Origin: a virus
Length of the DNA stretch: 34,633 nt
Direction: 5' to 3' (one strand)
IMG/VR virus record: IMGVR_UViG_3300042691_009144
Coordinates: 1 to 34,633 of that record
The notes under the pieces: generated by a model
The model's database searches: none
Seen by the model: the letters and a program-made list of their open reading frames with translations, nothing else
What the model was told of the DNA's origin: nothing
Made by a program: the position numbers and the translations under genes
Part shown: positions 6,491 through 33,729 of the stretch, piece after piece
Position numbering within the stretch: position 1 is the stretch's first letter
Layout of the letters: each line of letters begins with the position of its first letter

Positions 6491-7093
6491 ATGGAAAGAA
6501 AACGCTTTAAAGAATTTATAGGTTCAGGTACGCTCACGATCTTTGATATCGATGAGACGCTCTTTCATACTAAGGCTAAGGTAGCCGTTATGAAAGGCGA
6601 TAAGGTTGTTCGGATGCTGGATAATCAGGAGTTTAATACCTACAAGCTGAAGAAGGGCGAGTCGTTTGACTTCCGTGAATTCCGCTCTGCAGAAGTATTT
6701 CGTCGTACTTCCACACCCATAGTACGCATGGTTGAAAAAGCCAAGGCGATTGTTAAGGCTAAGAATAATGCAGCTAGTCGTGCTATTATCGTTACTGCTC
6801 GTGCTGACTTCGATGACAAGGAAATGTTTCTTCAGACATTTAGGGATCACGGTATTCCAATTGATCAGATGCACGTTGAGCGCTCCGGTAACCTCGGCCT
6901 GGGGTCGCCTGCAGAAGCAAAGAAAGTCGTGTTTAGAAAATACCTAAATACTAAGAACTATATTAAAACACGCCTATATGATGATGCTATGTCAAACCTC
7001 AAAGCGTTTCTCGAACTGCAAAGTGAGTATCCAGGCGTTACTTTTGAAGCGTGGTTTGTAAAGCCGGATGGTTCTGTACAGAGGATTAAATGA
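6491..7093 (+). CDS. HAD-superfamily phosphatase with capsid-targeting-like N-terminus (200 aa)
   Basis: A hydrolase with all four HAD motifs. Motif I is FDIDETLF with nucleophile Asp19 and acid Asp21. Motif II is the Thr in IIVTARAD. Motif III is a Lys in PAEAKKVVF. Motif IV is LYDDAMSNL with Asp164-Asp165. HAD enzymes dephosphorylate small molecules or nucleic-acid 3' ends; the substrate cannot be read here. The first ten residues (MERKRFKEFI) precede the catalytic strand and match the F-x-x-F-I N-termini of nearby proteins. It is coupled to the ligase-like gene by an ATGA overlap. That neighbour suggests nucleic-acid end healing, analogous to the phosphatase half of polynucleotide kinase, but this is inference. 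Confidence 0.8.
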   Translation: MERKRFKEFIGSGTLTIFDIDETLFHTKAKVAVMKGDKVVRMLDNQEFNTYKLKKGESFDFREFRSAEVFRRTSTPIVRMVEKAKAIVKAKNNAASRAIIVTARADFDDKEMFLQTFRDHGIPIDQMHVERSGNLGLGSPAEAKKVVFRKYLNTKNYIKTRLYDDAMSNLKAFLELQSEYPGVTFEAWFVKPDGSVQRIK

Positions 7094-8280
7094 AGAAGTT
7101 TACTAGTTTCCTGAGAGAGATGACTGAGGCAGATGAGAAGAAACTCAAACATCTTGAGCACCTAGAAGATCATCCAATCAACGCTGGTAAAGAAGGCGTT
7201 GATCATGCCATGAATAATCTGCTTGACGTTCATCGTAAGCTTCGTGGACGTGAAAACGATACTAAGATTACTATGAAGTATGATGGTTCACCTTCGGTTG
7301 TTTTTGGCCATCATCCACAGACAGGTAAGTTCTTTGTAGCTTCCAAGTCCGTATTTAATAAGAATCCTAAGCTCAATTATACTGATGAAGATATCGAGAA
7401 GAACCATGGGCATGCCCCTGGTCTTGTTGAGAAGCTGAAGCATGCATTGAAACATCTTCCTAAGGTAGTACCACCGCGTGGTGTGTACCAGGGTGATATC
7501 ATGCATACAGCTGGTGATGTTCAAGAACATGGCCATAAGGTATCGTTCACTCCAAACACAATCACATACTCAGCTAAGAAGTCTTCCCCTCAGGGTAAGG
7601 CTGCTTTGGCGTCTAAGATTGGTGTAGCTGTTCATACAGCCTACAAGGGTGATAATCTCGAAGATATGGAAGCGCAATACGCTCCAGATCTTTCGCATTT
7701 CGGTAATCATAAAGACGTACATCTGATCTCTACAGAGCATGATCTATCTCAGATTGATTACAAGAAAGAGAATCAAGAAAATTTTAATAAGCATATTAAA
7801 GAAGCACAGCGAGTCGCTCGTCAGATTCCAGCTGAAGGCCATGATGCTATCAGTGCTCATAGAATTCCACTTAAGACTTATATCAACTCAACTGTACGCA
7901 CTGGTACCTCACCAGACGTAGAGGGCTTTATGGCTCACTATAAGAACGCTCATCAGAAGGGCATTGATAAGGTTAAAACACCTAAAGCAAAGGAAGCTAA
8001 GACTGTTGAGATGCAGCGCGCACTTCAGCATGTACTGGATAACAAGCATCACTTCCATAATATTCTACAGCTGCATAGTCATATGCAGAAAGCTAAGGAT
8101 GCACTAACACATGCATTGTCTTCTAATGCTGAGTTTGACCATCATATTGCTGGTAAAAAAGCTAAGCCGGAAGGATTCGTAGTAGTCCGTAATAACAGAC
8201 CGACCAAGTTTGTTGACCGTGCTGAGTTCTCAGCTGCTAACTTTAATAGACCAGCTCCTGGAGCAGAAAAAGATGGCTAA
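7090..8280 (+). CDS. Ligase-like nucleotidyltransferase (DUF6267-like, 396 aa)
   Basis: I recognise this as a protein common in T4-like marine phages, usually annotated only as a DUF (I believe DUF6267). It shows the landmarks of covalent nucleotidyltransferases (RNA/DNA ligases): motif I MKYDGSPS with candidate nucleophile Lys63; VYQGDIM (residues 132-138) in the place of the GE-type motif III; PEGFVVVR with Glu361 as motif IV; and TKFVDR with Lys373 as motif V. Motifs IV and V are 12 residues apart, as in ligases. It is very rich in His and Lys. The N-terminus KKFTSFLREMTEA resembles a capsid-targeting peptide with an LRE/MTE cleavage option. It is coupled to the HAD phosphatase and overlaps the next gene by 8 bases. 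Substrate (RNA or DNA) is unknown. Confidence 0.8.
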   Translation: MKKFTSFLREMTEADEKKLKHLEHLEDHPINAGKEGVDHAMNNLLDVHRKLRGRENDTKITMKYDGSPSVVFGHHPQTGKFFVASKSVFNKNPKLNYTDEDIEKNHGHAPGLVEKLKHALKHLPKVVPPRGVYQGDIMHTAGDVQEHGHKVSFTPNTITYSAKKSSPQGKAALASKIGVAVHTAYKGDNLEDMEAQYAPDLSHFGNHKDVHLISTEHDLSQIDYKKENQENFNKHIKEAQRVARQIPAEGHDAISAHRIPLKTYINSTVRTGTSPDVEGFMAHYKNAHQKGIDKVKTPKAKEAKTVEMQRALQHVLDNKHHFHNILQLHSHMQKAKDALTHALSSNAEFDHHIAGKKAKPEGFVVVRNNRPTKFVDRAEFSAANFNRPAPGAEKDG

Positions 8281-8893
8281 AGATAAAAAGATTGTAACTG
8301 CTTTCGGTAGAATGAACCCTCCTACAACAGGTCACCAGAAGCTGATTGATGCTGTTCTGAATAAGGCTAAGGCTGAAGACGCTGATCACGACATTCGTCT
8401 TTCGCATTCACAGGACGCTAAGAAGAATCCTCTTTCTCAAGAGCAGAAGCTTCATCATGCTCGTAAGATGTTTCCGGGAGTAAACTTCTCTGGTTCATCA
8501 AAGGAACAGCCATCGTTTATTCATCATCTCAAGGACCTTCACTCTAAGGGCTATACGCACGTAACGATGATTGCAGGTTCGGATCGCGTACCTGAATATC
8601 AGAAAATTGCTGATAAGTATAATAAGGATCCTAAAGAGGGTGGTGAGTTTCACTTTAAGTCTATCAATATTCATTCAGCGGGGCATAGAGATCCTGACGC
8701 AGAAGGTACCGAGGGTATGTCTGCCTCTAAGATGAGAGGCCATGCTCAAGAAGGTAATTATCACTCTTTTAAGTCTGGACTTCCTTCGCATGTATCTCAT
8801 GAGCATGCTAAGGAACTTTACGATCATGTACGCCAGGGTATGGGTCTCAAGGAATCATATATAAGAAAATTCAGATCTTGGCTAATGGGATAA
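8273..8893 (+). CDS. NMNAT/cytidylyltransferase-like nucleotidyltransferase (206 aa)
   Basis: An enzyme of the HxGH nucleotidyltransferase superfamily, which joins NMP groups to phosphate acceptors (for example NMN adenylyltransferase making NAD). The first motif is TAFGRMNPPTTGHQKLIDA, with TTGH at residues 18-21. MIAGSDRVPEY in the middle resembles the G-x-D segment after the third strand. EGMSASKMRGH (S150-x-S152-x-x-R155) is the closing ISxxxxR motif. The ATG at 8273 has GGAG 9 bases upstream and overlaps the ligase-like gene by 8 bases. The C-terminus (SYIRKFRSWLMG) is a short basic-aromatic tail. NAD or coenzyme synthesis, or supplying an adenylylated substrate to the ligase-like neighbour, are both possible. 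Confidence 0.82.
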   Translation: MAKDKKIVTAFGRMNPPTTGHQKLIDAVLNKAKAEDADHDIRLSHSQDAKKNPLSQEQKLHHARKMFPGVNFSGSSKEQPSFIHHLKDLHSKGYTHVTMIAGSDRVPEYQKIADKYNKDPKEGGEFHFKSINIHSAGHRDPDAEGTEGMSASKMRGHAQEGNYHSFKSGLPSHVSHEHAKELYDHVRQGMGLKESYIRKFRSWLMG

Positions 8894-10247: not shown

Positions 10248-10592
10248 ATGTCTGCCGCTACTACAGTTAATCTTGTTGTCAATCAGAAAGCCAGCTTCGA
10301 AGTAACATTCAATGTGCTCAATAGTAATAGTGCGCCGCTAAACCTGACCGGTTATTACGCGAACGCTAAGTTCAAAGCAGATATCACAGCGCCTGATTCT
10401 ACAGCTGTAGCTTTCCAAACATCTTTTGCTAATGCAAGTAACGGATCAGTTACTATTGCTCTTACACCTGATCAGACAGCTGATATGCAGGTTGGTCGCT
10501 ACGTATATGACGTAGCTATAACAAATTCTGCTACAAACTTCAAAACCAGAATCGTTGAAGGTAAGGTTATCGTGAGCGGGGGCGTTGCTTAA
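10248..10592 (+). CDS. Ig-like/BppU-type baseplate or fibre accessory protein (114 aa)
   Basis: A single beta-sandwich domain by pattern: [20 protein letters not shown], then AKFKADI, ending [10 protein letters not shown] and [13 protein letters not shown]. This is the layout of phage baseplate upper protein (BppU)-like and Ig-like domains, in which a small protein caps or anchors a fibre. Ribosome site CCTAGGGA is 6 bases upstream. Its stop overlaps the ATG of the giant fibre gene (TAATG), so the two are translationally coupled, probably in a fixed ratio. A role as attachment collar for the fibre is inference. Confidence 0.75.
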
Positions 10593-16500: not shown

Positions 16501-18172
16501 TCAGGGTCTACAAGGGGTACAGGGCGCTCAGGGCGTTCAGGGACCGATTGGTTACACTGGATCGCAAGGACTACAGGGCGTTCAAGGCGCATTAGGTTAT
16601 ACAGGTTCACAAGGACTGCAAGGCGCTCAAGGCATCCAGGGGGCTCAAGGCCCAATTGGCTACACAGGATCTCAAGGTCTACAGGGAGTTCAGGGTGCGG
16701 TAGGCGCACAAGGTGTTCAAGGTGCTGTTGGCGCCCCAGGAGCTCAAGGTGTACAAGGACCCATTGGTTACACTGGATCGCAAGGTCTGCAGGGTGTACA
16801 GGGTGCCGCGGGAGCACAAGGTGTACAAGGCGCAGTAGGTGCTCAAGGCGTCCAAGGTGCCGCAGGAGCTCAAGGTCCTATTGGTTATACCGGGTCTCAA
16901 GGTTTACAGGGCGTTCAGGGTGCTGTTGGTGCGCAAGGCGTGCAAGGCGCAGTTGGTGCTCAAGGCGCGCTAGGTTACACTGGCTCGCAAGGCCTGCAGG
17001 GCGTTCAAGGCGCTGTCGGTGCGCAAGGTATTCAAGGCGCAATAGGAGCTCCAGGCGCGCAAGGTGTACAAGGACCTATCGGCTACACCGGGTCTCAAGG
17101 ACTACAGGGCGTACAAGGCGCTGTCGGCGCTCAAGGCGTACAGGGCGCTATCGGCGCACCAGGCGCTCAAGGTGTTCAGGGTCCAATAGGATACACGGGA
17201 TCGCAGGGACTACAAGGCGTACAGGGTGCAGTGGGCGCGCAAGGCGTACAAGGCGCAGTAGGCGCGCCTGGAGCGCAAGGCGTACAAGGGCCTATCGGAT
17301 ATACTGGTTCCCAAGGTTTACAGGGCGTTCAGGGTGCTGTTGGTGCTCAGGGTGTTCAAGGCGCAGTAGGTGCTCCCGGTGCGCAGGGTGTTCAGGGGCC
17401 AATAGGATACACCGGATCTCAAGGTCTACAAGGCGTACAGGGTGCAGTGGGCGCTCAAGGCGTACAAGGTGCTATCGGTGCACCAGGTGCGCAGGGTGTT
17501 CAAGGCCCGATTGGGTATACTGGTTCGCAGGGACTCCAGGGCGTACAAGGCGCAGTAGGCGCTCCTGGTGCACAAGGTGTACAAGGCGCTGTCGGCGCTC
17601 CTGGTGCACAAGGCGTACAGGGCGCAGTAGGCGCTCCTGGCGCGCAGGGTGTTCAAGGCCCTATTGGTTATACTGGTTCCCAGGGACTACAGGGCGTACA
17701 AGGCGCAGTAGGCGCTCCTGGTGCACAAGGTGTACAAGGTGCTGCAGGGGCTCAGGGTCCAATCGGATACACAGGATCACAAGGACTGCAGGGTGTTCAA
17801 GGCGCAGTAGGCGCGCCTGGTGCTCAAGGCGTTCAAGGCGCTGCTGGACCTCCAGGAGCTCAAGGTGTACAGGGTGCAGTAGGCGCGCCTGGTGCTCAAG
17901 GTGTTCAAGGCGCTGCTGGACCTCCGGGCGCACAAGGTGCTGTTGGCGCTCAGGGCGTACAAGGACCTATTGGTTATACCGGCTCAACAGGTATCAGTGT
18001 CACGACTACCGCGCCTTCGTCGCCGAATGTTAATGACGTTTGGATTGACTCTGACGGTACACCACCTATAGGTTACACAGGTTCACTAGGATCGCTACCT
18101 TATAACTTCACTGTCGGCCCGACAGCGCCGACAACACCGGTACTTTACGATATTTGGATTGATACAAACTAA
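10592..18172 (+). CDS. Giant collagen-like tail-fibre protein (2526 aa)
   Basis: About 2,140 of 2,526 residues are uninterrupted Gly-X-Y triplets. Gly-X-Y segments are residues about 47-220, 341-424, 471-869, 923-1513 and 1578-2467. They are separated by a 120-residue beta-type domain (about 221-340) and small W-rich modules (about 425-470, 870-922, 1514-1577). Early repeats are [11 protein letters not shown]-like; later ones are [16 protein letters not shown]-like, with Gln dominating the Y position and few prolines except near the end. One imperfection ([10 protein letters not shown], near residue 515) breaks the triplet register by one residue. The C-terminus has two short 'P..NDVWID' modules. 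Such proteins form trimeric triple helices; at 0.286 nm per residue this would be roughly 0.6 micrometres. Role as host-contact fibre is inferred from position and composition. Confidence 0.93.
12809..12943 (+). repeat. 45-bp repeat, three diverged copies, in collagen-like gene
   Basis: Three consecutive 15-residue units [15 protein letters not shown] have the same protein sequence but many synonymous base differences, such as TATACCGGTTCG against TATACTGGCTCC. This is what old tandem duplications look like after silent drift under protein-level constraint. Confidence 0.8.
15407..15532 (+). repeat. Exact 63-bp tandem duplication in collagen-like gene
   Basis: Two adjacent 63-base units (15407-15469 and 15470-15532) appear base-for-base identical and encode the same 21 residues, beginning [15 protein letters not shown]. 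The unit is a whole number of triplets, so reading frame and Gly-X-Y register are kept. Most other repeats in the gene differ at silent sites, so this copy is probably recent. Confidence 0.88.
16415..16477 (+). repeat. 27-bp tandem repeat, 2.3 copies, in collagen-like gene
   Basis: The unit GGCGTTCAAGGCGCAGTTGG plus CGCGCAA occurs twice without change (16415-16441, 16442-16468) and then as a 9-base partial copy. It encodes [10 protein letters not shown] similar 27-base unit is duplicated at 12323-12372. Confidence 0.8.
16964..17503 (+). repeat. 108-bp higher-order repeat array, five copies
   Basis: Five successive 36-residue units (12 triplets each) begin [20 protein letters not shown] and end GAPGAQGVQ; the first begins GAL and two positions vary between V and I. 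At base level the copies differ at silent positions. This higher-order period is clear only near the C-terminal end of the Gly-X-Y region; the block after it continues with shorter units containing GAPGAQ. Confidence 0.85.
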
Positions 18173-22852: not shown

Positions 22853-23487
22853 TGGCACAATTTTATACCTGGGATAGAAACGGGTTCGAAGACGCATACT
22901 GGAAGTACTTCTACAGAATTAGAGGGTGTGGTGCTTCGCATGCTAGAACGTGCAAGTGCACCGATACTTACATATCCTATTCGCGTAACTTTTTTGACAC
23001 TAATGAAATGTTTCGCGAAAGAGCTACTAAGGTAGTTAGCGCAATTTCATTACCGGCCGGCTCTTCCGTATTAGTAGTAGGGTGTGCTCTTGGTTATCTA
23101 ATGGACGAGTTAAAAAAGCTTGGTATGAACTGCTATGGTATAGATAACTCTCAATATATCAAGTCTATTAAGAATAAAGAAAAAGTAAACTTTGATATAG
23201 CTGATATTAGTATTATTAGTACAAGACTATTAACTGAGTTTCAAAGAGAAGTTGGAGTAACACAATTCGACTGTATTATTACAGAAGATGTATTACCCTC
23301 TCACAACTCATGGGATAATATTTTTACTAACTGTGAAACACTAATAAAGCCAGATAAGCCAAAAACAAATATCGTTCATATTGTAGAGACAAATGCTGCG
23401 GGTACCTTTATTAGCAAAACATTAAACCAATGGAAGCAGCTAAAACCGACACATACTTGGCTGAACCAGAACGGAAATACTGAATGA
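22852..23487 (+). CDS. SAM-dependent methyltransferase in the fibre block (211 aa)
   Basis: Class I methyltransferase core: motif I SVLVVGCALGYLMDELKK (about residues 71-88), post-I acidic strand NCYGIDNS, a later FDIADIS and FDCIITEDVLPSHNSWDN as motif IV region. The N-terminal 50 residues are aromatic with a Cys cluster (RGCGASHARTCKCTD) that could bind a metal. It differs from the FkbM enzyme at 2836. The substrate is unknown; candidates are a fibre protein, a fibre-attached glycan or a host molecule. It overlaps the fibre-domain gene by one base and the propeller gene by four bases (ATGA), so it is co-translated with structural proteins. Confidence 0.78.
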   Translation: MAQFYTWDRNGFEDAYWKYFYRIRGCGASHARTCKCTDTYISYSRNFFDTNEMFRERATKVVSAISLPAGSSVLVVGCALGYLMDELKKLGMNCYGIDNSQYIKSIKNKEKVNFDIADISIISTRLLTEFQREVGVTQFDCIITEDVLPSHNSWDNIFTNCETLIKPDKPKTNIVHIVETNAAGTFISKTLNQWKQLKPTHTWLNQNGNTE

Positions 23488-26400
23488 GCCATACTCTTGA
23501 AGCACAAGTAAAAGCTGTAAGTGTAACATCGGGTAATCTTAACCTCCCGATGAACAATATTATTAACCCTGAAGGCCACTGGTATTACTATCAGCCACTG
23601 AACGCTAATAACTCAGCTATACCAGCATCTATTGTACCATATCAGTGGGGTACTATTCTACCGCTCGTTGGCCCTGCGGATGAGCTATTGCAAATGGAAG
23701 GTACTATGCCTCTTCTAAGAGAGGTATGGAACAGCGCTAATGTATTCTACCATGGCGGTGTTAATGAACTGATCGGCCCTGGTGTTAATGATGTAACTGC
23801 TACTCAGGAAGATGACGCGTTCTTCTTCTCACACCTTTCAGCTCTTTCAGCTGTTGCTAATACAGATGTTAATGCTTTCTACTGGGATAGAGCATTCCAA
23901 GCGACTGATAACTTAGCAGGTGACTGGGACTTCTACCAGTACCACGCTCACCTACCAACTAACTATCCTCAGTACGAAGCGGGTAGACTTACCACCTCCG
24001 GGGGTCTGTATGTAGAGCCTACGGATAAAGCCTATGGTTATCTAATTCATACCCGCGTTAGAGTTAGCGGAACAGACTATCAGTCTGTCATGGCACGTAT
24101 TCATACCCCATCTGTCGGTGGCGCTCACAACTCCCACAATGACGTTACACTACCAACCGCTTCAAATAAAAACTATATTATGGGCGGTATCATTAAAGGT
24201 ATTGGTAATCGTTTCCATGCATTCTATATTACAGCAAATGGCTCGCAGTGGACAGTATTCAACCGTACATATGTTCATACATCAGCATCATTTACATCGC
24301 AGGTTGAGCTCGGTACTTTCGATCTAGCTGATCCGACATTTACTCTTGGATCGACGCTTTATGATTACCCGATGCGTGTTAGCTGCGGCGATACATTTGG
24401 TCAACGAATTTACTTCCCTGTTATTATGAATAATGCTACTTCAGGTTTTGATCTCGAGATCTGGTCATTCAACTCTAACGATACCATCGCTGGTGGTTCA
24501 CTTATACGTACCGTAATTCTCTCTGGGGTAGCTACAAGACCCGACTGTGTACTACATACTGTCGGGGATACTCTACACGCAGCTGTTACCGATGTAGCTA
24601 GCGGCGGTATTTCGTTCTATTCTACTACCAACGGTACAACCTGGGAAAATGCAACTAACCAGATTGTAACAAACGGGTCTGCTAACCCCCTACGTATTCA
24701 CGGTTTCAAGTACAACCAGCAGGATATTAATTACTATATTCTTCTTAGCGGTACCTCTACCGGTACTGGAACATATGACGGTCCTGGTCTTTATACATTT
24801 AAAATTCAGGGCGACTTTGCTGGTTATGATCACCTAGACTATGATCATACAACTAACTCTTTTGTAAATAAAGGTCCTCTAACAAACGGCCATATTGCAT
24901 ATACAAAGTCTTCGGGCATTTTAACTAGATATGCTACTCAAGAGCCAGAAGGTATCAGCCCTACAGTTAATATTCTTAACTATACAACAGGCCCGCAAGC
25001 TATCTTTAATAAAGTTGAACTAGATCTTCAGGGCGATGAATATATCTACCAGGGTATTATTCTGCATGATGGTAGAAAGCTTCTGACCGGTCGCGTCGAA
25101 AATCTAAAGTATCGTACATATAATACTAGCAGTCTGTTAGCTATTATCAATAGCCAAGACGCCGCTACTAATTATTCGTTTGCCTTTGATTGCATAAGCG
25201 GTGATGCTGTTGACCCTGCGCGTCCTATTGTCGGTGATAATTACATTACCGGAGTTTATCAATCACATCTGGATGAAAATAAAATCTGGTTTACTGGTTA
25301 TGGTAAGAGCGAAGTAGTACCTAAAAGGGATGTAAATATTCATGGCTACTGCCGCAATCTAACCACCGGTACATTTGACCGAATAGAATGGAACTCTATT
25401 GCGCTAGACTCGGCCGGAAATATCTACTGCGCTGGTTATGATGATGGTGGTCAAGTGCTTATTGCCAAGTATTCTGTTAACTACATACTGCAATGGCAAA
25501 AGCTTATTTCCATTACCGGTTTCGATATAATCGGAAACGATATTGCTATTGATAGTGCGGGTAATATCTATGTTGCGGGTACTATCTCTGATCCTAATAC
25601 ACCAGGTAGTGCTCGCTCGGCGTTTGTTACTAAGTACGACTCAACAGGTACAGAGATTTGGTCTAAATCATACAACTACAGCACTAATATTACAGCTGGG
25701 CAATCTCTAGCCTGTGTTAATAATGGTGGCACAGACTATCTTATTCTCTCAGCGACAGTTGATGTAGGCGGATCAGTATTCGATACTGTTATAATGCAGC
25801 TGGATACTTCTGGTGCAATAGAGTCTCAAAAGGTATTAGATTCTATTTCCATTACTAAAATAAGAGATAATAATACTAATAACGGTAGATTTATATTTGT
25901 TGGCTTTAACCACTCTACAAGTGATGCTATTTTTGGTATGGGAGATATCAACGAAAGTAGCTTTGTAAAATGGCTGGCCACTTACGATGCATCTGTAACG
26001 TTAACTGATATTACAAGAACAGCCTCCGGTGTATATGCTATTGTTGGATCTATTTCAACTAGTGCATTTGTAGCTAAAGTAACTGTTTCTGAATCACTCG
26101 GCTCGTTTACAATAACCAAGTCGTGGGCTAAAACATTAGCAACATCGTCCTATAACGCTGTTGTAGGTGATGCGAATTATATCTATTGCATTGGCACCGC
26201 AACAAGCGGCGGCACAGCTGCTATGGGCATGAACGAAGGTCTTGTTACTCGTTACCTCTCAACAGACGGTACGCTTGATTGGCAGAATGTATTTGGCCAT
26301 GATATGGACGAGGCATTCAAGAATGCTATATTTGATATCACAACAAAGAACATTATTGTTTGCGGGTATTCAGAGTCACATTCTGTTTCACGTGACGCTA

Positions 26401-27659
26401 TTATTTTCCGTCTATCTACTAACGGTTATGGCACCGGTGTTTACCATATTGTAGGTAATGTTGGCGTACCTTATTACTATGCTAAATCAGCAATTGTAGC
26501 TAGTAACGAGGCGTCTTCTATCACTCCATTATCACTTCCTTCAGAAGATACTGGTAACAGAGAAGTATCCACACCAACTCTAACTTATACGACAAGCTCT
26601 ATTACATCTAATATATTTGACGGGTCGTATGGCGGCGATGGTGTATTCATGATGTACTTTGGCTACATTGATCTAGTCAAAGTAGCCGAGTATCTTAACT
26701 CAGATGAATATAAAGCAAATCTAGCAGCTGGTAATCGCGTAAACTATACAGATCAGATCTGGAACTTCTGGCAAGTTGCTACAGTAGGAGATGGAACAGC
26801 TGACGATGGTAACGTATTCGGCTATGATATTATAGAAACATCAGATGGTAAAGTATACATCATTGGTCAAACATCCGGTGATATCGCTAAGACAAATACT
26901 GGTACTGCAGGTGTATATGACTATATCTTAGTCAAGTTTGATCCTGTTACAGAAGAGATTGAGTATTATCAAAACGGTTCGGATCTTGACGAAGAAACAT
27001 ATGCACTCACAGAGCTTGAGAACGGTAAGATTGCTTTCTGCGGAAGAACAACTGGTACATTAGCTAATACTAATCTGGGCGGCTATGATATCTTCCTGGG
27101 TATCTATAACCCGGCTGATGATACGTTTGTTTATAGATCAACAGGCTCAGGGCTAGACGATCGCGGTATGAACGTGCACGATATGGGTGCTAATACACTA
27201 GCGGTTGTTTATGGAACTTATGGCGACTTCGGAGGTACGAACTTAGGACCACAGGATGTTGGTATCGCGTTTTATAACTACGCTACAAATGCCTGGGCTA
27301 ATGCATACCTAACAGGTACTACATCTGCTGACCTGTTTGATCAGAACGGTAAGCCATCAGTAAGACTAGACAATGGTACTATTGCTATTGGATTCTCGAC
27401 TGCTGGAGTCTATAATACAGATGTTGGCGCTCAAGGCTTCCTAGATATTGCTATCGCTATCTTTGATCCTGTTACTAATACATTCTATAAAGGACAAACC
27501 GGATCTCAATCTAGTGAAATCTTTACATCGGTTGATGTAAGAGGTGAGCGCGGCATCTTTACTGGATATATCTCAGGTACGTTCGGTGAGGGTGTTCAGG
27601 GTATCTTTGGCGAAGGCGACGTAGTAACCGCAATCGGTGCAAGAAGTTCATCGGCTTAA
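23484..27659 (+). CDS. Large beta-propeller fibre/adhesin protein (1391 aa)
   Basis: The N-terminal 250 residues (GHWYYYQPLNANNSA, YQWGTILPLVGPADELLQ) look like a fibre attachment region with little repeat. Then come propeller-type blades. SBBP-like repeats are visible near residues 640 and 687 (LDSAGNIYCAGYDDGG; IDSAGNIYVAGT, then FVTKYDSTGTEIWSKSY). A second type of blade repeats four times near the C-terminus: YDYILVKFDPVTEEIEYYQN, YDIFLGIYNPADDTFVY, QDVGIAFYNYATNAW and LDIAIAIFDPVTNTFYKG. No enzyme motif is evident. It is the last gene of the fibre block and is likely a surface-binding adhesin. It is followed by an intergenic unit with its own promoter and terminator. Confidence 0.82.
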   Translation: MSHTLEAQVKAVSVTSGNLNLPMNNIINPEGHWYYYQPLNANNSAIPASIVPYQWGTILPLVGPADELLQMEGTMPLLREVWNSANVFYHGGVNELIGPGVNDVTATQEDDAFFFSHLSALSAVANTDVNAFYWDRAFQATDNLAGDWDFYQYHAHLPTNYPQYEAGRLTTSGGLYVEPTDKAYGYLIHTRVRVSGTDYQSVMARIHTPSVGGAHNSHNDVTLPTASNKNYIMGGIIKGIGNRFHAFYITANGSQWTVFNRTYVHTSASFTSQVELGTFDLADPTFTLGSTLYDYPMRVSCGDTFGQRIYFPVIMNNATSGFDLEIWSFNSNDTIAGGSLIRTVILSGVATRPDCVLHTVGDTLHAAVTDVASGGISFYSTTNGTTWENATNQIVTNGSANPLRIHGFKYNQQDINYYILLSGTSTGTGTYDGPGLYTFKIQGDFAGYDHLDYDHTTNSFVNKGPLTNGHIAYTKSSGILTRYATQEPEGISPTVNILNYTTGPQAIFNKVELDLQGDEYIYQGIILHDGRKLLTGRVENLKYRTYNTSSLLAIINSQDAATNYSFAFDCISGDAVDPARPIVGDNYITGVYQSHLDENKIWFTGYGKSEVVPKRDVNIHGYCRNLTTGTFDRIEWNSIALDSAGNIYCAGYDDGGQVLIAKYSVNYILQWQKLISITGFDIIGNDIAIDSAGNIYVAGTISDPNTPGSARSAFVTKYDSTGTEIWSKSYNYSTNITAGQSLACVNNGGTDYLILSATVDVGGSVFDTVIMQLDTSGAIESQKVLDSISITKIRDNNTNNGRFIFVGFNHSTSDAIFGMGDINESSFVKWLATYDASVTLTDITRTASGVYAIVGSISTSAFVAKVTVSESLGSFTITKSWAKTLATSSYNAVVGDANYIYCIGTATSGGTAAMGMNEGLVTRYLSTDGTLDWQNVFGHDMDEAFKNAIFDITTKNIIVCGYSESHSVSRDAIIFRLSTNGYGTGVYHIVGNVGVPYYYAKSAIVASNEASSITPLSLPSEDTGNREVSTPTLTYTTSSITSNIFDGSYGGDGVFMMYFGYIDLVKVAEYLNSDEYKANLAAGNRVNYTDQIWNFWQVATVGDGTADDGNVFGYDIIETSDGKVYIIGQTSGDIAKTNTGTAGVYDYILVKFDPVTEEIEYYQNGSDLDEETYALTELENGKIAFCGRTTGTLANTNLGGYDIFLGIYNPADDTFVYRSTGSGLDDRGMNVHDMGANTLAVVYGTYGDFGGTNLGPQDVGIAFYNYATNAWANAYLTGTTSADLFDQNGKPSVRLDNGTIAIGFSTAGVYNTDVGAQGFLDIAIAIFDPVTNTFYKGQTGSQSSEIFTSVDVRGERGIFTGYISGTFGEGVQGIFGEGDVVTAIGARSSSA

Positions 27660-27844: not shown

Positions 27845-27877
27845 AGGCTTCTTGTAATTCGACAAGAGGCTTTTTTT
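27845..27877 (+). terminator. Intrinsic terminator before the head-protein genes
   Basis: AGGCTTCTTGT (27845-27855) pairs with ACAAGAGGCTT (27862-27872), with two G-T pairs, closing a six-base loop. The run of seven T residues is 27871-27877. It ends the small-ORF unit and lies only 7 bases before the ribosome site of the 933-residue protein. I see no TATAAATA between it and that gene, so readthrough, processing or another promoter type must supply the downstream transcript. Confidence 0.8.
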
Positions 27878-27893: not shown

Positions 27894-30695
27894 ATGGACG
27901 AATTAGACGAAAAAGTATTAGACATTCAGCAGCGTCAAAAGCGCGCTCAGATCATGAGACGTTATGCGTCTAAGATCGAAAGAGCTCGTGAGATGGCTAA
28001 GAAGAGAATGGCACCAGAAGCTAATATTCGCAAGCGCGCCTTTGTAATGGCGAGACAGCTAGTACGCAAACGCGTCGCTGGACAACGCGGTGCTGAGTAT
28101 GAAAAGCTAGGCCCATCAGAAAAGATCGCAATCGATCGTGCCGTAGAAGGTAAGCAGAAGCAAATTAAGAAGCTAGCATTACGTCTTATTCCTCGCGTAA
28201 AGCAAGCTGAACAAAAGCGCCTCTCTTCCTACATGAAGGGGCAGCAGCTTCAGAACCATGGCCAGAAGGAAGGTAAGTCCAAAGAATCTTCAGGTTCTTC
28301 TTCAGTTAAAGAGAGCCTAAACACCCTATTTAACGAAGCATTTCCGCCAGGTGATACCTCCAATGTAATGGGTCAGAATGTAGCTACACCTGTATCCCAA
28401 AACAGTAAGAAGATGCCGGCTAAGGATAAGTCGAAAAGCTCTGAAATTATTCAGCATAACAAGTTTCAAGAAGAAGTAGAGCTCGATACACCAGCATTTG
28501 CTGCCCTATTTAAGAAGTCAGATAAGTCTGGTGTTGATATAGAGATACTTGGTGAAGTTTACAATCGTGGTTGGAATACATGGACAGAGAGCTGCAAGGT
28601 ATCTCAGCAGCAGTATGCTTTCGCTCGTGTTAACTCTTACATCAATCAAGGTAAGACATACTTTAATGAAGATAGCGATCTTCATGGTGAAGAACTTAAC
28701 GAACTTACTGATGAAGAAAAAGCAAAGCGTCTTGCTTTAATTAAGTACTATGTCAAAAATAAGACCACAAAAGTACCTGAAGGCCGCGCAAAAGGTGTTT
28801 TACCAAAGGGCAAGAATCAATTTGCTTCAAAAACGATTGGTAAGTTTAACAAGTATAAAGGCAAAGGTGGGAGTGGCGCATTAGCCAACACAGTTAGTAG
28901 AAAAGCAGTTATCGGGGAAGATCTAGATCTAGATGAAGGTCGTGCACCCCGTGAAGGTAAGATCGTTCGCTATAAGCGCCCTGACGGCTCAACGGCTCTT
29001 AAGTCACTTAATAAGTGGGGTAAGAGAAAGGACTGGAGAGATTCAGAAGGCGGCCTTGCCAAGGCTAAAGAGCATGCCGGTGTAGATAAGGTACATGAAG
29101 ATATTCAGATTGATGAAGTTTCAAAAGCTACACTAAAGTCATACTCCCAAAAAGCTGAGAAACAGACTCGCGGCAATCAACCTCACGGTGCAGATGCTCT
29201 AAGAAAGCGCACTAATCGTGAGAAGGGTCTAAAGGCTGCATATAACAAGTATTATGGTTACAAGACCAAGGTACCTGCTACTGAGGAAGTCCAGATTGAT
29301 GAAATGGGTGGTGATCAGCACTACTCAGATACTAGAGGTGCTACATCTGGCGGCGCTAAGGGTACTCCTATCACACGCAAGAAAGCTGCTAAAGACGCAA
29401 CCGCTACTCTTAACAAAGCGTTTAAGAAAGAGGTACAGCAGACCAACGAAAATTTTATTGACGGGAAGGGCCCAGGGAAGCCCGGGGACTCAGCCCGTCA
29501 TGGTTTAAAGGGTAAGTCAGCCGCTGAACTCAGAAAGATTCGCTCTTCTGATACAGCATCTCCTCGTAAGAAGCAACTAGCTCATTGGCTGCTTAATATG
29601 CATCACAATGAAGAAACAGAGCTTGACGAGAAGCGTGGTCTATGGGATAACATCCATGCTAAGCGCGCTCGTATTAAAGCTGGTTCAGGTGAGCGTATGC
29701 GTAAGCCAGGATCTAAGGGTGCACCTACAAAGCAAGACTTTAAGGACGCTCAAGAGTCAGTTCAAGAATCCTATAATGTAAACGATAAGCATTACAAGGC
29801 TCTTACAGATCTAGATCTGAATACCAAGAACCGTGACATGACTACAAAGCATGACGGTTATGGCCCGCTTAATCCTTTAGATAAAAAGGGCTCGAAAGCT
29901 TTCTGGGAAGATAAAGCTAAGATGTGGAATACTACCACAGAAGCTGCTATGGAAGCACGTTGCCGCAACTGCGCTGCATTTAACCAGGCTCCAGCTATCA
30001 TGAAGAAGATGGCCGAAGGACTTGGCCCTGCAGGTGAAAAGATTCAAGATCTAGCTAACCTCGGCTTCTGTGAGCTGTTCGAGTTCAAATGCGCAGGTGA
30101 AAGAACTTGCAATAAGTGGCTAGTCAATGGTCCTATTACAGAAGAAGATACAGGTAACGGTACAAGACTAGTTGATAAAGAGTCAAAGAACTCTAAGGCT
30201 CGTAAGAAAATCGAAACTGTAGATCGTAAGCCACCGCATACCGAATATACACGTCAAGCTGAAATCAAGACTAAGGTTATTGATGAAAACAGCACATGCC
30301 CTATCTGCAATGGTAAGGGATGTAAGTGTAGTGGTAACTCGCAAAACGATCCTAAGAAGCGTCTTATCGGCACCGACTCACTAGTCAAAGCATATAAGAA
30401 AGATACTCCGTTTTCGGAATCACTAGATGAGTCTTTCAATATTGCTTTTGCAGCTGGTATCGGTGTTACACTAACAGCCGCTGATCTCGGTATGAAAGCA
30501 CAGAGCGGTTTTGCTTATCATCCATCTGTAATTGAAGAGATGGATGAAGTAGAAGAAGAAGTAAGATCAGCTGATTATAAAGGTGTTATAGTAAGAACAG
30601 CATCGGGTAAAACAGTTGTGCGTAAACAAAAAGTTGATCGTAAGATTATTGGTTCAGGCAATTTAACAGATGGACAGCCAGATGATACGGTTTAA
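27894..30695 (+). CDS. Multi-module basic internal/structural head protein with (L/I)DE linkers (933 aa)
   Basis: Conserved in T4-like marine phages but uncharacterised. I chose the ATG at 27894 with AGAGGAA upstream; a TTG at 27876 lies inside the terminator. Residues 1-130 are a very basic helical domain (RRYASKIERAREMAKKRM). A W-containing module (VYNRGWNTWTES, QQYAFARVNSYI) follows at about 220-260. Then come basic modules separated by acidic linkers ending in LDE-G (346-348), IDE-V (406-408), IDE-M (468-470), LDE-K (577-579) and LDE-S (844-846). These match the (L/I)xE sites of T4 gp21 protease. Two Cys clusters may bind metal: C690, C693, C726, C733, C739, and CPICNGKGCKC at 802-812. 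A conserved AGIGVTLTAADLGMKAQ segment follows the last linker. Packaging and cleavage are inferred. Confidence 0.82.
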   Translation: MDELDEKVLDIQQRQKRAQIMRRYASKIERAREMAKKRMAPEANIRKRAFVMARQLVRKRVAGQRGAEYEKLGPSEKIAIDRAVEGKQKQIKKLALRLIPRVKQAEQKRLSSYMKGQQLQNHGQKEGKSKESSGSSSVKESLNTLFNEAFPPGDTSNVMGQNVATPVSQNSKKMPAKDKSKSSEIIQHNKFQEEVELDTPAFAALFKKSDKSGVDIEILGEVYNRGWNTWTESCKVSQQQYAFARVNSYINQGKTYFNEDSDLHGEELNELTDEEKAKRLALIKYYVKNKTTKVPEGRAKGVLPKGKNQFASKTIGKFNKYKGKGGSGALANTVSRKAVIGEDLDLDEGRAPREGKIVRYKRPDGSTALKSLNKWGKRKDWRDSEGGLAKAKEHAGVDKVHEDIQIDEVSKATLKSYSQKAEKQTRGNQPHGADALRKRTNREKGLKAAYNKYYGYKTKVPATEEVQIDEMGGDQHYSDTRGATSGGAKGTPITRKKAAKDATATLNKAFKKEVQQTNENFIDGKGPGKPGDSARHGLKGKSAAELRKIRSSDTASPRKKQLAHWLLNMHHNEETELDEKRGLWDNIHAKRARIKAGSGERMRKPGSKGAPTKQDFKDAQESVQESYNVNDKHYKALTDLDLNTKNRDMTTKHDGYGPLNPLDKKGSKAFWEDKAKMWNTTTEAAMEARCRNCAAFNQAPAIMKKMAEGLGPAGEKIQDLANLGFCELFEFKCAGERTCNKWLVNGPITEEDTGNGTRLVDKESKNSKARKKIETVDRKPPHTEYTRQAEIKTKVIDENSTCPICNGKGCKCSGNSQNDPKKRLIGTDSLVKAYKKDTPFSESLDESFNIAFAAGIGVTLTAADLGMKAQSGFAYHPSVIEEMDEVEEEVRSADYKGVIVRTASGKTVVRKQKVDRKIIGSGNLTDGQPDDTV

Positions 30696-30951
30696 GGAAT
30701 TTATAGACGAGGCTACATATCAGGGTAAGAAAGTACCTCTTAATAAGCGCCTACCCGGCGACGTTAAGAAGTCAAAAGTCTTTGTTGACCCTGACGGCGA
30801 CGGAAAAGCTCAGAAGGTAAACTTCGGCGATAAAAATATGAAGATTAAAAAGAATATCCCAGCTCGCCGTAAATCATTTAGAGCCCGTCATAACTGTGAT
30901 AATCCAGGGCCGAAGACAAAAGCTCGCTACTGGTCTTGTAAAGCTTGGTAA
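30682..30951 (+). CDS. Conserved small basic phage protein (89 aa, capsid-targeting-like N-terminus)
   Basis: I recognise the C-terminal half, FGDKNMKIKKNIPARRKSFR and then ARHNCDNPGPKTKARYWSCK, as highly conserved in T4-like cyanophages and some other large viruses; the function is unknown. The two Cys and the His (RHNC, WSC) could bind a metal. The N-terminus from this ATG is MIRFKEFIDEATYQGKK, matching the F-x-x-F-I-x-E-A form of T4 internal-protein targeting peptides, with IDE-A as a possible cleavage site. An earlier in-frame ATG at 30670 adds four residues; neither has a strong ribosome site. It overlaps the end of the 933-residue gene, suggesting coupled translation. Confidence 0.82.
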   Translation: MIRFKEFIDEATYQGKKVPLNKRLPGDVKKSKVFVDPDGDGKAQKVNFGDKNMKIKKNIPARRKSFRARHNCDNPGPKTKARYWSCKAW

Positions 30952-30960
30952 GGAAGTAAA

Positions 30961-31401
30961 ATGGAAGAATTAATTGAAGATCTTAAGAAGGTGTTTGCTG
31001 CAAACTACGCTTTCTATCTAAAGGCCCAATACTATCACTGGAACGTAGAAGGTCCAGATTTCCCTCAGTACCATGAGTTCTTTGGTAGCCTTTATCAAGA
31101 AGTAGGCGGCGCAATCGACTCAATGGCTGAGCATATTAGAGCGCTAGATGCATATGCGCCTGGCTCATTTAAACGCCTGGAAGAGCTATCATTTATCGAA
31201 GGTGATGATACTATTCCTACTGGACTTGCTATGGCCGCAAAGCTTCTCGAGGATAATGATAAACTCACACCAATGCTTATCGATGTTATGAAGAAAGCAG
31301 AAAGTGTTGATAGATACGGTACAGCTAACTTTATACAAGATAGAATCGAAGCTCATAGAAAGCATGCTTGGATGCTTCGTGCGATAACAAAGAGAGTCTA
31401 A
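30961..31401 (+). CDS. Dps-like ferritin-fold protein (146 aa)
   Basis: Dps proteins form 12-subunit cages that oxidise and store iron and protect DNA. The signature AQYYHWNVEGPDFPQYHEFF is present, then VGGAIDSMAEHIRALDAYAP. Measured from His26, candidate ferroxidase ligands fall at His38 (+12), Asp53 (+27) and Glu57 (+31). This is the same spacing as His51, His63, Asp78 and Glu82 of E. coli Dps. The position of E. coli Asp67 (+16) is Gly42, so one ligand may be missing. There is no Lys-rich N-terminal tail for DNA binding. The length is normal for a short Dps. Ribosome site GGAAG precedes the ATG, and it sits between conserved head-type genes and is coupled (TAATG) to the next one. Confidence 0.88.
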   Translation: MEELIEDLKKVFAANYAFYLKAQYYHWNVEGPDFPQYHEFFGSLYQEVGGAIDSMAEHIRALDAYAPGSFKRLEELSFIEGDDTIPTGLAMAAKLLEDNDKLTPMLIDVMKKAESVDRYGTANFIQDRIEAHRKHAWMLRAITKRV

Positions 31402-32000
31402 TGGCATTCACATCACTCGGTAGAGTTGCTAGACAAATTTTAGAAAAAGCTCCCGGCGCTCATGGCGCACTTGCACCTGATGGTGGCCCTGAAAAGGATA
31501 TGAACGATCAGATTGCAGTAGGCTCTTATACTACTAAATCGTTCGAAATGTCTGATAAAGCCCAGAAGCTATATTCCGATCTTCCAAAAGATGTACCTGG
31601 CGGTTCAGCTGAAGCAGCTGCTATTCAGTTAGATAAGATCTTTGACTTGTTTAGAGATGCGCGCGCTACAGGTCATATTAATCCTGATTCACTTAAATCC
31701 GCTATCACTAGCGAGAAGAAAGTCAGAAGCTTAGCTAAAGAGATGGATCTTGAAGATGAGCATAATGAAATATTAACTGATATTATGAGACATCTTTATG
31801 ATTATGCTGCTGATGCGCCAGAAAGAATTATTGATCCAGAAGATCATGTACATCCTTCAGATGACCCACGCTTTAAGACAGACTCAAAAGATTACAATAC
31901 CGATAAGACAAATGACCGTGACATTGATAATGTCAAGAATTTCCTTATTAGACGCTCGCTGAAGGCTCAGCGTAAGCTTAAGATTATCGATAACGATTAA
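31401..32000 (+). CDS. Hypothetical phage protein (199 aa)
   Basis: Not recognised. I chose the ATG at 31401, which overlaps the Dps stop by one base; an upstream in-frame start would lie inside the Dps gene. It is a helical, charged protein: LGRVARQILEKAPG at the N-terminus, then a central helical region (DKIFDLFRDARATGH, LAKEMDLEDEHNEILTDIMR). The acidic, Asp-rich tail (DPEDHVHPSDDPRFKTDSKD) is followed by a basic end (IRRSLKAQRKLKIIDND). No enzyme motif is seen. Position between Dps-like and (L/I)DE-linker proteins suggests a virion role, without proof. Confidence 0.75.
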   Translation: MAFTSLGRVARQILEKAPGAHGALAPDGGPEKDMNDQIAVGSYTTKSFEMSDKAQKLYSDLPKDVPGGSAEAAAIQLDKIFDLFRDARATGHINPDSLKSAITSEKKVRSLAKEMDLEDEHNEILTDIMRHLYDYAADAPERIIDPEDHVHPSDDPRFKTDSKDYNTDKTNDRDIDNVKNFLIRRSLKAQRKLKIIDND

Positions 32001-32002
32001 TT

Positions 32003-32010
32003 AATAAATA
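32003..32010 (+). promoter_or_regulatory. Possible late promoter AATAAATA
   Basis: A 7/8 match to TATAAATA lies three bases after the preceding stop and 27 bases before the ATG at 32038. The leader is A/T-rich with GGAGAAGAG as the ribosome site. The box is weaker than the exact matches elsewhere. Confidence 0.4.
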
Positions 32011-32037
32011 CAATAAACTCTATGGAGAAGAGACAAA

Positions 32038-33729
32038 ATGATTGATAGCAACAACGATATTACCAAGCTTTCAAAGAGCCTGCTAGCTGCTGTTCGCGGG
32101 GTTATGGAAGGCAAGGAAGGTACAGCGCCTAAGTCAGAGAAAGAAAAAGACTTAGCTGCCAAGGCTCCTCCTCATGATAAGGTTACACATGCTGACGTTC
32201 TAGTTGGACGTGGTGTACTTAAGAAGCACCCTAAGTCGGGTAAGCTTGTTACTAAGGAAGAGACATCTAACGCTCTCGGTTATGCTAGCAATGTTCTTAA
32301 CAAGATGCGTAACGAAGAAGCAGAAGAGCTAGACGAGCTTTCAACAGATACACTCAAGAGCTATCGCAATAAAGCGCGCGCTCAAGGTAATAAGATCGTC
32401 GACAAGATGAAGATGGGTGGTGGCGACTGGTCGAAGGATCAGAAGGATACCCAGACCCTTCGTAAGAGATCAAAGGGCGCTAACATGTCTGGTAAGCAGC
32501 TTGTTAAGCGCGGTGAAAGCCTGAAGACCGAGGAAGTTGAAGAGATTGATGAAGCTCTTGACGCGGCAGCACGTTATGGTCAGCATCACGTGGCCATCAA
32601 AGAGCTCATGAAGTCGATTTCCCAGCATGTAGAGTCACATAAGACTGACGCACTTAAGCATCGCGACTATCGCGGTAAGAAGGGTGTGCACTGGGGTCAC
32701 GTTGGTGATGTTGCACAGATCCACTCTCAGTTAGCTGATATTCACGATCGTCTTGCACAGCAAGGCGAGTATAAGAGGTCGATGGCTGAATCGCTAGACG
32801 AAGCAAAGACTGATGGTGTTGCAGCTGGCTCAATGGAGAAGGACGGTCACCTCTGCGCTACAAAGGTCTTCCATAAGGAATGGGCTGAAGGTACTCCTAT
32901 CTTCTCGCAGCATGCTGAACCAGACGAAAATGGCGACATTGCATGGTATGACGTAATGTTCGAGCATGGTATCGAAAAGGGTGTTTCGATCGAAGATCTA
33001 GAAGTTCTTATGTCAGAAACTCATGAGCGTCACGGCAAGCGTAAGATGAAGGAAGAGACTGAGCTTGATGAGTCGGCAAAGGTTGCTGCGCATCTCATCA
33101 AGCGTTACGGTGATAACGTTCGTAAGTCACATGTCCGTTCAGCTGCTAACGACTTCGGCGTAGGCTATGTCGCTCTATCACATGCTGTTCGTAAGAAGCT
33201 AGGTGTTAATCGTCTAGAAGAAGATACAGAAGAGCTAGATGAGCTATCAAAGAACACACTTCACTCGTACATCGAAAAGTCAGCACGCGATGTTCACAAT
33301 CAGGCCTATCGCGCTGGTAAGAAGGAAGGCGGCGAAGGCAAGCTTGATTCAGATAAGATTTTAAAGAGCTTAACCCGCCAGATTGGCATTTCGAAAGCTA
33401 CACGTAAGCTTGCAGGTAAGGCTAAGGTTAACGTCAAGGAAGAAAACGAACTTGATGAAGCGCGCGGTCGCCCTCGTAAGAACCCGCTACCTACCGGTCA
33501 GTCGGATGAGCCAGAACCACGCCAGCACATCATTCAGCAGCTTCAGAGAGCAAAGCTTTCGATGCGTGGCGGTGAGCACGTAACATTTAAGGATGGTACA
33601 AAGCATCACGTAGCTGGTCAACATGCTGAAAAGATTCTTGCCAAGTATTCAGCTATGAAGCCAGCTGGTAAGGAAGAGTTTCAGAAGAAGATCAGCGCAT
33701 CGCACGCTGCTTTCAAAGCGGAACTGTAA
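32038..33729 (+). CDS. Bead-on-string protein with six (L/I)DE linkers and an AT-hook (563 aa)
   Basis: Uncharacterised. Six acidic linkers end in LDE or IDE at residues 98-100, 170-172, 253-255, 343-345, 400-402 and 472-474. The residues after the cut position are L, A, A, S, L and A; four of the six match the (L/I)xE-(A/G/S) consensus of T4 gp21. The linkers divide the chain into seven modules of about 55-100 residues, mostly basic and helical. Two modules begin with the same form, ELSTDTLKSYRNKA and ELSKNTLHSYIEKS; a third, EVSKATLKSYSQKA, is in the 933-residue protein. The last module opens with ARGRPRKNP, an AT-hook (RGRPRK at 476-481). A DNA-binding internal head protein processed into peptides is the best inference. 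GGAGAAGAG precedes the ATG. Confidence 0.82.
   Translation: MIDSNNDITKLSKSLLAAVRGVMEGKEGTAPKSEKEKDLAAKAPPHDKVTHADVLVGRGVLKKHPKSGKLVTKEETSNALGYASNVLNKMRNEEAEELDELSTDTLKSYRNKARAQGNKIVDKMKMGGGDWSKDQKDTQTLRKRSKGANMSGKQLVKRGESLKTEEVEEIDEALDAAARYGQHHVAIKELMKSISQHVESHKTDALKHRDYRGKKGVHWGHVGDVAQIHSQLADIHDRLAQQGEYKRSMAESLDEAKTDGVAAGSMEKDGHLCATKVFHKEWAEGTPIFSQHAEPDENGDIAWYDVMFEHGIEKGVSIEDLEVLMSETHERHGKRKMKEETELDESAKVAAHLIKRYGDNVRKSHVRSAANDFGVGYVALSHAVRKKLGVNRLEEDTEELDELSKNTLHSYIEKSARDVHNQAYRAGKKEGGEGKLDSDKILKSLTRQIGISKATRKLAGKAKVNVKEENELDEARGRPRKNPLPTGQSDEPEPRQHIIQQLQRAKLSMRGGEHVTFKDGTKHHVAGQHAEKILAKYSAMKPAGKEEFQKKISASHAAFKAEL

Follow-up and report, generated by a model that had tools for sequence, protein, structure and literature searches.

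Two long modular proteins of an uncultured phage as probable head-internal polyproteins cut by a gp21-type protease

We analysed a DNA stretch of 34,633 nt from an uncultured phage (IMG/VR record IMGVR_UViG_3300042691_009144, positions 1 to 34,633; hereafter the window), and in particular two long proteins encoded in it, termed A and B, which consist of modules joined by short acidic linkers. The comparisons presented below lead us to propose, with a probability of about 0.77, that A and B are head-internal polyproteins (prohead core or cargo) of a T4-like aquatic phage, and that they are cut by a gp21-type protease. According to this proposal, A and B would probably be built into the prohead, and a gp21-type protease (Peptidase_S77) would cut after the glutamate of [L/I/V]-x-E, of which LDE or IDE within an acidic linker would be the commonest form here. 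Cutting would free folded modules, mostly of about 50-110 residues. As one short motif recurs at every seam between self-contained domains, modules may be swapped, reordered, split off with a targeting peptide of their own, or fused again. What we infer is a T4-like window phage with a gp21 of its own, actual cleavage, use of most junctions, and pieces that remain in the head to enter the host and do not leave the prohead.

A first-pass annotation of the window had predicted cutting of this type at the linkers. Comparative tests support the prediction, the conserved element being [LIV]xE rather than LDE as such. The support comes from the motif at module starts, from targeting-like N-termini ending in the same motif, from motif-free copies of the modules in phages lacking the protease, from homologues encoded beside gp21, and from virion records of cyanophages.

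Linkers, charge and repeats in proteins A and B

Thirteen [LI]DE tripeptides are present in the two proteins, seven in A and six in B (Table 1). Composition shuffles (5,000 per protein) gave means of 0.43 (A) and 0.40 (B), with a maximum of 4. The regular linkers described in the first-pass annotation are therefore real, although it had counted eleven. The acidic form proposed for them, (E/D)(E/D)-x-(E/Q)-(L/I)DE, is exact in five of the 13 (A 406, 468 and 577; B 343 and 472) and occurs with one additional residue in three more (B 98, 170 and 400), the remaining five being looser. Spacing had been given as about 55-110 residues; eight of the eleven intervals from tripeptide to tripeptide (57-109 residues) agree with this, the others measuring 342 (A 4 to 346), 219 and 48 residues. 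The description of the modules as mainly basic is borne out, as the net charge is +5 or more in 11 of 14 segments (segments longer than 6 amino acids (aa), the last ten residues left out where a linker follows); one segment is at +1 and two are negative (one of them B 256-345, at -9). We also confirmed all three copies of the repeat reported to follow linkers directly: VSKATLKSY at A 409, LSTDTLKSY at B 101 and LSKNTLHSY at B 403, each immediately after a linker.

Linker codons vary between copies within the window, which suggests that the constraint acts mainly at the protein level. The idea that the linkers are DNA recombination sites was tested through this codon variation and was not retained: codons differ from linker to linker in the window, although CTT is over-represented across relatives. 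Filing A and B as wholes by profile (Pfam, PHROGs, NCBIfam) was likewise abandoned, as it returned families of unknown function or weak matches, such as DUF5824 over part of A. Use of a TTG start at 27876 would lengthen A by 6 aa. In a near-identical copy of the window phage (L002, 14145-15832 of contig IMGVR_UViG_3300008120_000254), B is divided into two frames of 320 and 239 aa, either by an assembly error or by a real split.

Exchange of modules between related proteins

In tblastn searches named phages match only parts of A and B, and no record reached 80% coverage of either protein. Among the matches listed for A (40 of 76 records), residues 9-263 are matched by Sinorhizobium phages, residues about 573-640 by cyano-, pelagi- and roseophages among others, and residues about 636-750 by two records annotated as 'high potential iron-sulfur protein'. 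Among those listed for B (24 of 24 records), residues about 207-345 match cyanophages.

A further 105 loci were obtained from viral contigs (25 via A and the best 80 of 111 via B). Two or more acidic linkers were present in 50 proteins, among them A and B; the 43 left after dropping 7 near-copies were cut into 206 modules. These were clustered with their last 10 residues trimmed; with the linkers left on, one false giant cluster of 109 modules resulted. Of the 30 module families with several members, 26 have neighbours of more than one kind, protein ends being counted as a kind. Module order varies as well: L030 has family M7 after both M14 and M16, whereas B places M7 ahead of M14 and L028 places it ahead of M16. 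Two linker proteins (L049 and L059) have their first three and last four modules in common, four middle modules of one corresponding to two in the other. Of 826 inner ends of BLAST matches, 37% lie no more than 12 aa from a linker, as compared with 18.5% for random places. Judged by these sequence comparisons, the segments between linkers are exchanged cassettes among the 43 linker proteins.

A hydrophobic-x-E motif at module starts

T4 gp21 is reported to cleave after the E of L/I-x-E; in the targeting peptide of IPIII, residues 8 and 10 are reported to determine processing, which is inhibited by an aspartate at position 10. The modules served as queries against the remaining frames of the loci, after exclusion of the 51 frames that encode linker proteins or copies of them. 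A first set of 185 module starts, in which the motif was counted as present if [LIVM]xE lay within two residues of the start, comprised 131 with the motif, 23 at Met and 31 with neither; the motif occurred at 9.9% of random positions. After removal of similar contexts, [LIVM]xE was present at 113 of 155 starts (72.9%) versus 5.4% elsewhere, [LI]xE at 88 of 155 (56.8%) versus 2.5%, and [LI]DE at 18.7% versus 0.3%. When [LIVM]xE was looked for within one residue, it was found at the junction in 64%, six residues upstream in 18%, three residues upstream in 14%, and at the other offsets tried in 0-9%. Control motifs gave, at starts and elsewhere respectively, 6.5% and 4.7% ([KR]xE), 5.8% and 4.1% ([AG]xE), 5.2% and 2.1% ([FYW]xE), 1.3% and 5.3% ([LIVM]xD), and 1.3% and 1.9% (DE after other residues).

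In proteins not picked for their linkers, [LIVM]xE is present at 109 of 148 module starts, while 1,000 shuffles of local residues gave a mean of 27.6 and a maximum of 43. The middle residue is other than D at 75 of these starts (shuffled mean 24.8, maximum 39). Starts at which the 12 upstream aa have at most four identities to the query linker still show the motif in 83 of 121 cases, and for 31 of 41 query modules most scored homologues have it. At homologous junctions the middle residue varies and the residues at P3 and P1 (the hydrophobic residue and the glutamate) stay; the requirement for D at the middle position was dropped for that reason, and LDE, one form of the L/I-x-E of gp21, is the favoured local version of a wider [LIV]xE junction. 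The predicted preference for A, G or S after the cut is moderate: these residues follow 69 of 138 linkers and the motif at 47 of 109 module starts, the residues most often found after it being K, G, A and S.

One module in several contexts and presence of the protease

In A, the module KRGLWDNIHAKR comes after ELDE. In two related loci it belongs to a separate frame and comes after a targeting-like N-terminus, MIRYKDFISE in L069 and MITFKQFLDE in L102, and in the four small phages examined (DC33, CRP-804, WH11-B and P-SCSP1d) it is located at, or a few residues from, its own Met. A cysteine module is preceded by VQE/S in A, IEE/G in L003 and VEE/S in L004 (a slash marks the junction). It forms a separate protein in L071, L088 and L101, with leaders ending in FLSE/A, FLFE/A and FLTE/A, respectively; the stand-alone leaders end within three alignment columns of the VQE of A. 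The next gene after A encodes a small protein that contains MIRFKEFIDE/ATYQGKK. Homologues of it were found in 25 records, nine of which were examined: a leader ends in LTE/A in C48C1 and in LEE/A in HTVC008M, the homologue lies inside a longer protein in immuto (LDE/G) and Melnitz-3 (MME/S), and in five small phages such a leader is missing, three of the proteins beginning directly at the domain.

Peptidase_S77 is present in 10 of 21 named phage records, namely that of T4 and those of nine phages 141-229 kb in size. The motif is missing from the module copies of the other 11 (18-129 kb), of which DSL-LC01 has an annotated capsid maturation protease of a different kind. Among 30 records of relatives, most of them short, Peptidase_S77 was found in 6. 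As a separate observation, Limnohabitans phage DC33 (L137, PQ492659.1) is filed as Inoviridae although its record is 39 kb long, and its taxonomy looks wrong.

Targeting-like N-termini and the head operon

We scanned the first 25 residues of 1,609 called genes for F[LIVFM]xE with A, S, G, M or R as the next residue; 40 genes carry it, as against 3.1 expected from the interior density. Two of them are in the window, at 7090 (MKKFTSFLRE) and 30670 (FIDE/A); some of the 40 are probably chance occurrences or copies of one family. With a broader pattern ([FYLM][LIVFM]xE, then A, S, G or M) the contrast is weaker, 84 genes versus 29.1 expected. NMNAT-like proteins start with MKSFLQFLKE/A in S-SCSM1, MKSYKEFLSE/A in S-H38 and MKRYTNFLSE/A in S-CREM1, and the short NMNAT-like protein of P-HM1 has no targeting-like start. 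In the major capsid protein, LxE is found at T4 propeptide position 65 (E65) in 9 of 9 sequences, T4 included (from a T4 mutant clone record) and one sequence being one column off; it is followed by A in 8.

The same 30 records of relatives contained gp23 in five cases and gp21 in six. In all five with gp23 (G001-G004 and G008) the portal is upstream of gp21 and a linker-bearing protein is encoded between them. This protein matches B in G002 (E 4e-17), G003 (7e-13) and G008 (2e-21). That of G001 matches other linker proteins; that of G004, which has an ALDE/K junction, was matched by none of the seven linker proteins compared. The same interval, between portal (gp20) and gp21, is where T4 encodes its core proteins gp67 and gp68. 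A and B are outside it, at 27-34 kb, near beta-propeller and Dps-like genes.

Related proteins in cyanophage virions

In CsCl-purified S-SCSM1, 45 virion proteins were detected, NMNAT among them (PMC9602691). The GenBank record of this phage labels SSCSM1_89, 90, 91, 92 and 93 as virion proteins. SSCSM1_92 contains NKEEVELDE/RTRY, and SSCSM1_89 contains EEVENVDE/RYKG and NSILDE/ARR. The NMNAT-like protein of the window matches SSCSM1_91 (E 2e-39), and an S-H38 protein with a module common to SSCSM1_89 also bears the Tudor-like module of B. SSCSM1_92 and 93 have pieces in common with other linker proteins, and none with A or B; SSCSM1_92 also has a piece in common with the G008 protein encoded upstream of gp21. 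The 41 virion proteins of S-SM1 include gp21 and a cytidylyltransferase as new detections (PMC3037559). Virions of S-CREM2 likewise contained a cytidylyltransferase, with ORF155 and ORF156 detected beside it (PMC10665884), as did those of S-SZBM1 (PMC9146016); 14 virion proteins are reported for S-CREM1 (PMC9964418). S-CREM1 (L122, 3001-5352) and S-H38 (L119, 4902-7226) encode long hypothetical proteins with dense [LIV]xE and acidic stretches; on sequence grounds these may be further polyproteins of this type in which LDE is less frequent.

Weighing the proposal and its alternatives

A number of observations weigh against cutting of A and B by a gp21-type protease. The loci were fetched through homology to A and B, so that their junctions are not independent observations. 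The motif is missing at 39 of 148 module starts, V and M occur at P3, beyond the L/I rule of T4, and the residues at P1' include K and L. In HTVC008M Peptidase_S77 is present and yet the GLW module, the one found after ELDE at aa 577 of A, begins at Met, and in S-H38 the start of the Tudor-like module has no motif. No targeting peptide is recognisable in A, the N-terminus of B is atypical, and the NMNAT-like protein of RN05-S starts with FFSE/A, that is, FSE. No gp21 was found in the window, a 34.6-kb fragment. The virion detections concern whole genes, and the portions of those reports at hand mention no cleavage fragments; in addition, T4-GC190, the group of the virion-detected S-SM1 enzyme, includes a short P-HM1 member with neither linker nor targeting peptide. 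Finally, the leucine codon in linkers of the 43 related proteins is CTT in 58 of 90 cases versus 474 of 1,548 overall, an excess that hints at a trace of shared linker DNA, through descent or recombination.

The main live rival is that A and B form a modular prohead-core scaffold of the gp67/gp68 kind, in which the same cuts would demolish the core and most pieces would exit before DNA packaging. The linker-bearing protein between portal and gp21 in five large relatives, which in three of them matches B, would fit such a scaffold, as would the report that T4 core proteins are cut into several pieces, most of which exit the head. Linker-bearing proteins are, however, recorded in CsCl-purified S-SCSM1 virions, several modules are free-standing in phages without such a protease, and some look like folded domains (the Tudor-like barrel; the NMNAT-type enzyme in related proteins). 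We consider this scaffold unlikely. Somewhat less likely still are uncut, flexible acidic spacers within one long protein, LDE being a by-product of common ancestry and of recombination at repeated linker DNA. The linkers are indeed acidic and probably flexible, CTT is over-used for their leucine, the sample is dominated by related sequences and some starts have no motif. Against this, hydrophobic-x-E lies far above composition-matched shuffles while other x-E motifs show little or no enrichment, the middle residue varies whereas P3 and P1 stay, and targeting-like N-termini and the major capsid propeptide end in the same motif. That A and B are ordinary mosaic host-takeover proteins of the infected cell, unrelated to the virion, appears very improbable. 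Mosaicism and small basic domains are generally known to be common among such proteins, and cyanophage homologues lie near replication genes (e.g., primase and ribonucleotide reductase); the virion records of related S-SCSM1 proteins, the cytidylyltransferases in S-SM1, S-CREM2 and S-SZBM1 virions, the targeting-like N-termini and the module proteins adjoining gp21 all speak for a link to the virion.

Comparison with known head proteins and significance

The proposed head-internal polyproteins resemble T4 IPI-IPIII and Alt in their mostly basic content and in their presumed packaging with the DNA; the N-terminal targeting-like peptide ending in L/I-x-E is common to these T4 proteins, several proteins of the relatives and the small window protein. 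Each T4 protein is one unit that is cut near its N-terminus (in Alt also at the C-terminal end), whereas numerous internal junctions separate exchangeable modules in A and B. With T4 gp67/gp68 and gp22, A and B share multiple gp21-type sites and, through relatives, module homologues in the gp20-gp21 interval; the two are located elsewhere, and their modules are common to free-standing proteins of unrelated phages. Inner-body and ejection proteins of phiKZ and SPN3US are likewise numerous head-internal proteins processed by a prohead protease behind a short x-E motif (PMC10052503), which is S/A-x-E in phiKZ; there propeptides are removed, and the portions of the source at hand describe no shuffled multi-module polyproteins. 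SSCSM1_89-93 are rich in [LIV]xE, partly with EEVELDE linkers, and are recorded in virions; the NMNAT N-terminus among them ends in FLKE/A, and SSCSM1_91 is homologous to the window protein at 8210-8893. They differ in that SSCSM1_92 and 93 have no module in common with A or B; in the parts of their description at hand they appear as virion or metabolic proteins, with no cleavage or modular model. In the literature searched (titles and abstract openings of part of the matches), no description of modular prohead-protease polyproteins in T4-like phages was found.

Tentatively, we further suggest for aquatic T4-like phages a combinatorial cassette system in which the protease motif doubles as a seam for swapping small effector and DNA-binding domains. 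Each phage lineage would carry its own cargo on one or two polyproteins, and the protease would free it inside the head so that it is delivered together with the genome; a Tudor-like module, of the kind that binds host RNA polymerase, would be part of this cargo. Cutting of A and B by a gp21-type protease would be one way to explain a group of hypothetical proteins encoded by aquatic T4-like phages, cyanophages and pelagiphages among them, and the pieces of head-internal polyproteins, including their exact N-termini, would be predictable from sequence. If true, the list of proteins that such phages may inject at infection grows; the protease site is also suggested as a driver of domain shuffling.

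Possible functions of the modules

The modules had been described as DNA-binding peptides, which proves too narrow in view of an acidic Tudor-like barrel, a conserved cysteine domain and, in related proteins, an NMNAT-type enzyme. The structure model of B 259-345 is a five-strand barrel with a predicted local distance difference test score (pLDDT) of at least 90 at 43 of 87 residues. Foldseek placed UvrD/PcrA Tudor domains at ranks 1 and 3-5 (E 0.18-0.55, none significant); one of these domains was solved with an RNA polymerase lobe domain. In VIA-align a UvrD1 Tudor domain was again the best match, at Z 4.5, a score shared by NusG, PHF1 and further SH3-like barrels. Weak matches to the PcrA/UvrD Tudor Pfam profile were obtained for 12 of 58 homologues, with a best E of 0.003, and none for the window copy; a profile of the module had no match at E 1 among PDB sequences. 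For the cysteine module the structure model is poor (mean pLDDT 57). The C-terminal module of B starts with ARGRPRKNP, which we read as AT-hook-like, and several other modules are small and basic; DNA binding is plausible for some modules only.

Features of the window and neighbouring genes

Table 1. Positions in the window of proteins A and B, their putative junctions and modules, and related genes
Feature	Position	Strand	Remarks
Protein A, modular linker protein	27894..30695	+	933 aa
LDE junction, A aa 4-6, directly before basic domain KVLDIQQRQKRA	27903..27911	+	domain at [LIVM]xE in 11/11 deduplicated starts (query A/1)
LDE junction, A aa 346	28929..28937	+	[LI]DE scan
IDE junction, A aa 406, then VSKATLKSY repeat	29109..29117	+	[LI]DE scan
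IDE junction, A aa 468	29295..29303	+	[LI]DE scan
LDE junction, A aa 577, before module KRGLWDNIHAKR	29622..29630	+	query A/5, 19 starts: 11 motif, 5 Met, 3 neither
VQE, A aa 623-625, possible junction	29760..29768	+	aligns near ends of targeting-like N-termini of homologues
Cysteine-rich module, A aa 633-752	29790..30149	+	annotated 'high potential iron-sulfur protein' in some phages
IDE tripeptide, A aa 796	30279..30287	+	[LI]DE scan
LDE tripeptide, A aa 844	30423..30431	+	sole scored homologue of next module has no motif at its start
Small basic protein, targeting-like N-terminus MDSQMIRFKEFIDE/A, IDE at 30703-30711	30670..30951	+	phrog_7595
Protein B, modular linker protein	32038..33729	+	563 aa
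LDE junction, B aa 98, then LSTDTLKSY repeat	32329..32337	+	[LI]DE scan
IDE junction, B aa 170	32545..32553	+	next module recurs in relatives, in the protein upstream of gp21
LDE junction, B aa 253	32794..32802	+	[LI]DE scan
Tudor-like beta-barrel module, B aa 259-345	32812..33072	+	7/11 scored homologous starts at motif
LDE junction, B aa 343	33064..33072	+	[LI]DE scan
LDE junction, B aa 400, then LSKNTLHSY repeat	33235..33243	+	[LI]DE scan
LDE junction, B aa 472, before C-terminal module ARGRPRKNP	33451..33459	+	sole homologue scored is without motif
phrog_455 protein, targeting-like start MKKFTSFLRE/M	7090..8280	+	homologues in 3/5 large relatives searched
NMNAT/cytidylyltransferase-like protein	8210..8893	+	S-SCSM1 homologue is a virion protein

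Between the small targeting-like protein and B, the window encodes a Dps-like ferritin-fold protein (30961-31401; Pfam Ferritin, E 3e-26; phrog_3636). Immediately upstream of A lies the gene for a 1391-aa protein with SBBP beta-propeller repeats (23484-27659), possibly a tail fibre or adhesin. A 2526-aa frame (10592-18172) follows shortly after a virion structural protein (phrog_1645, 8897-10216).

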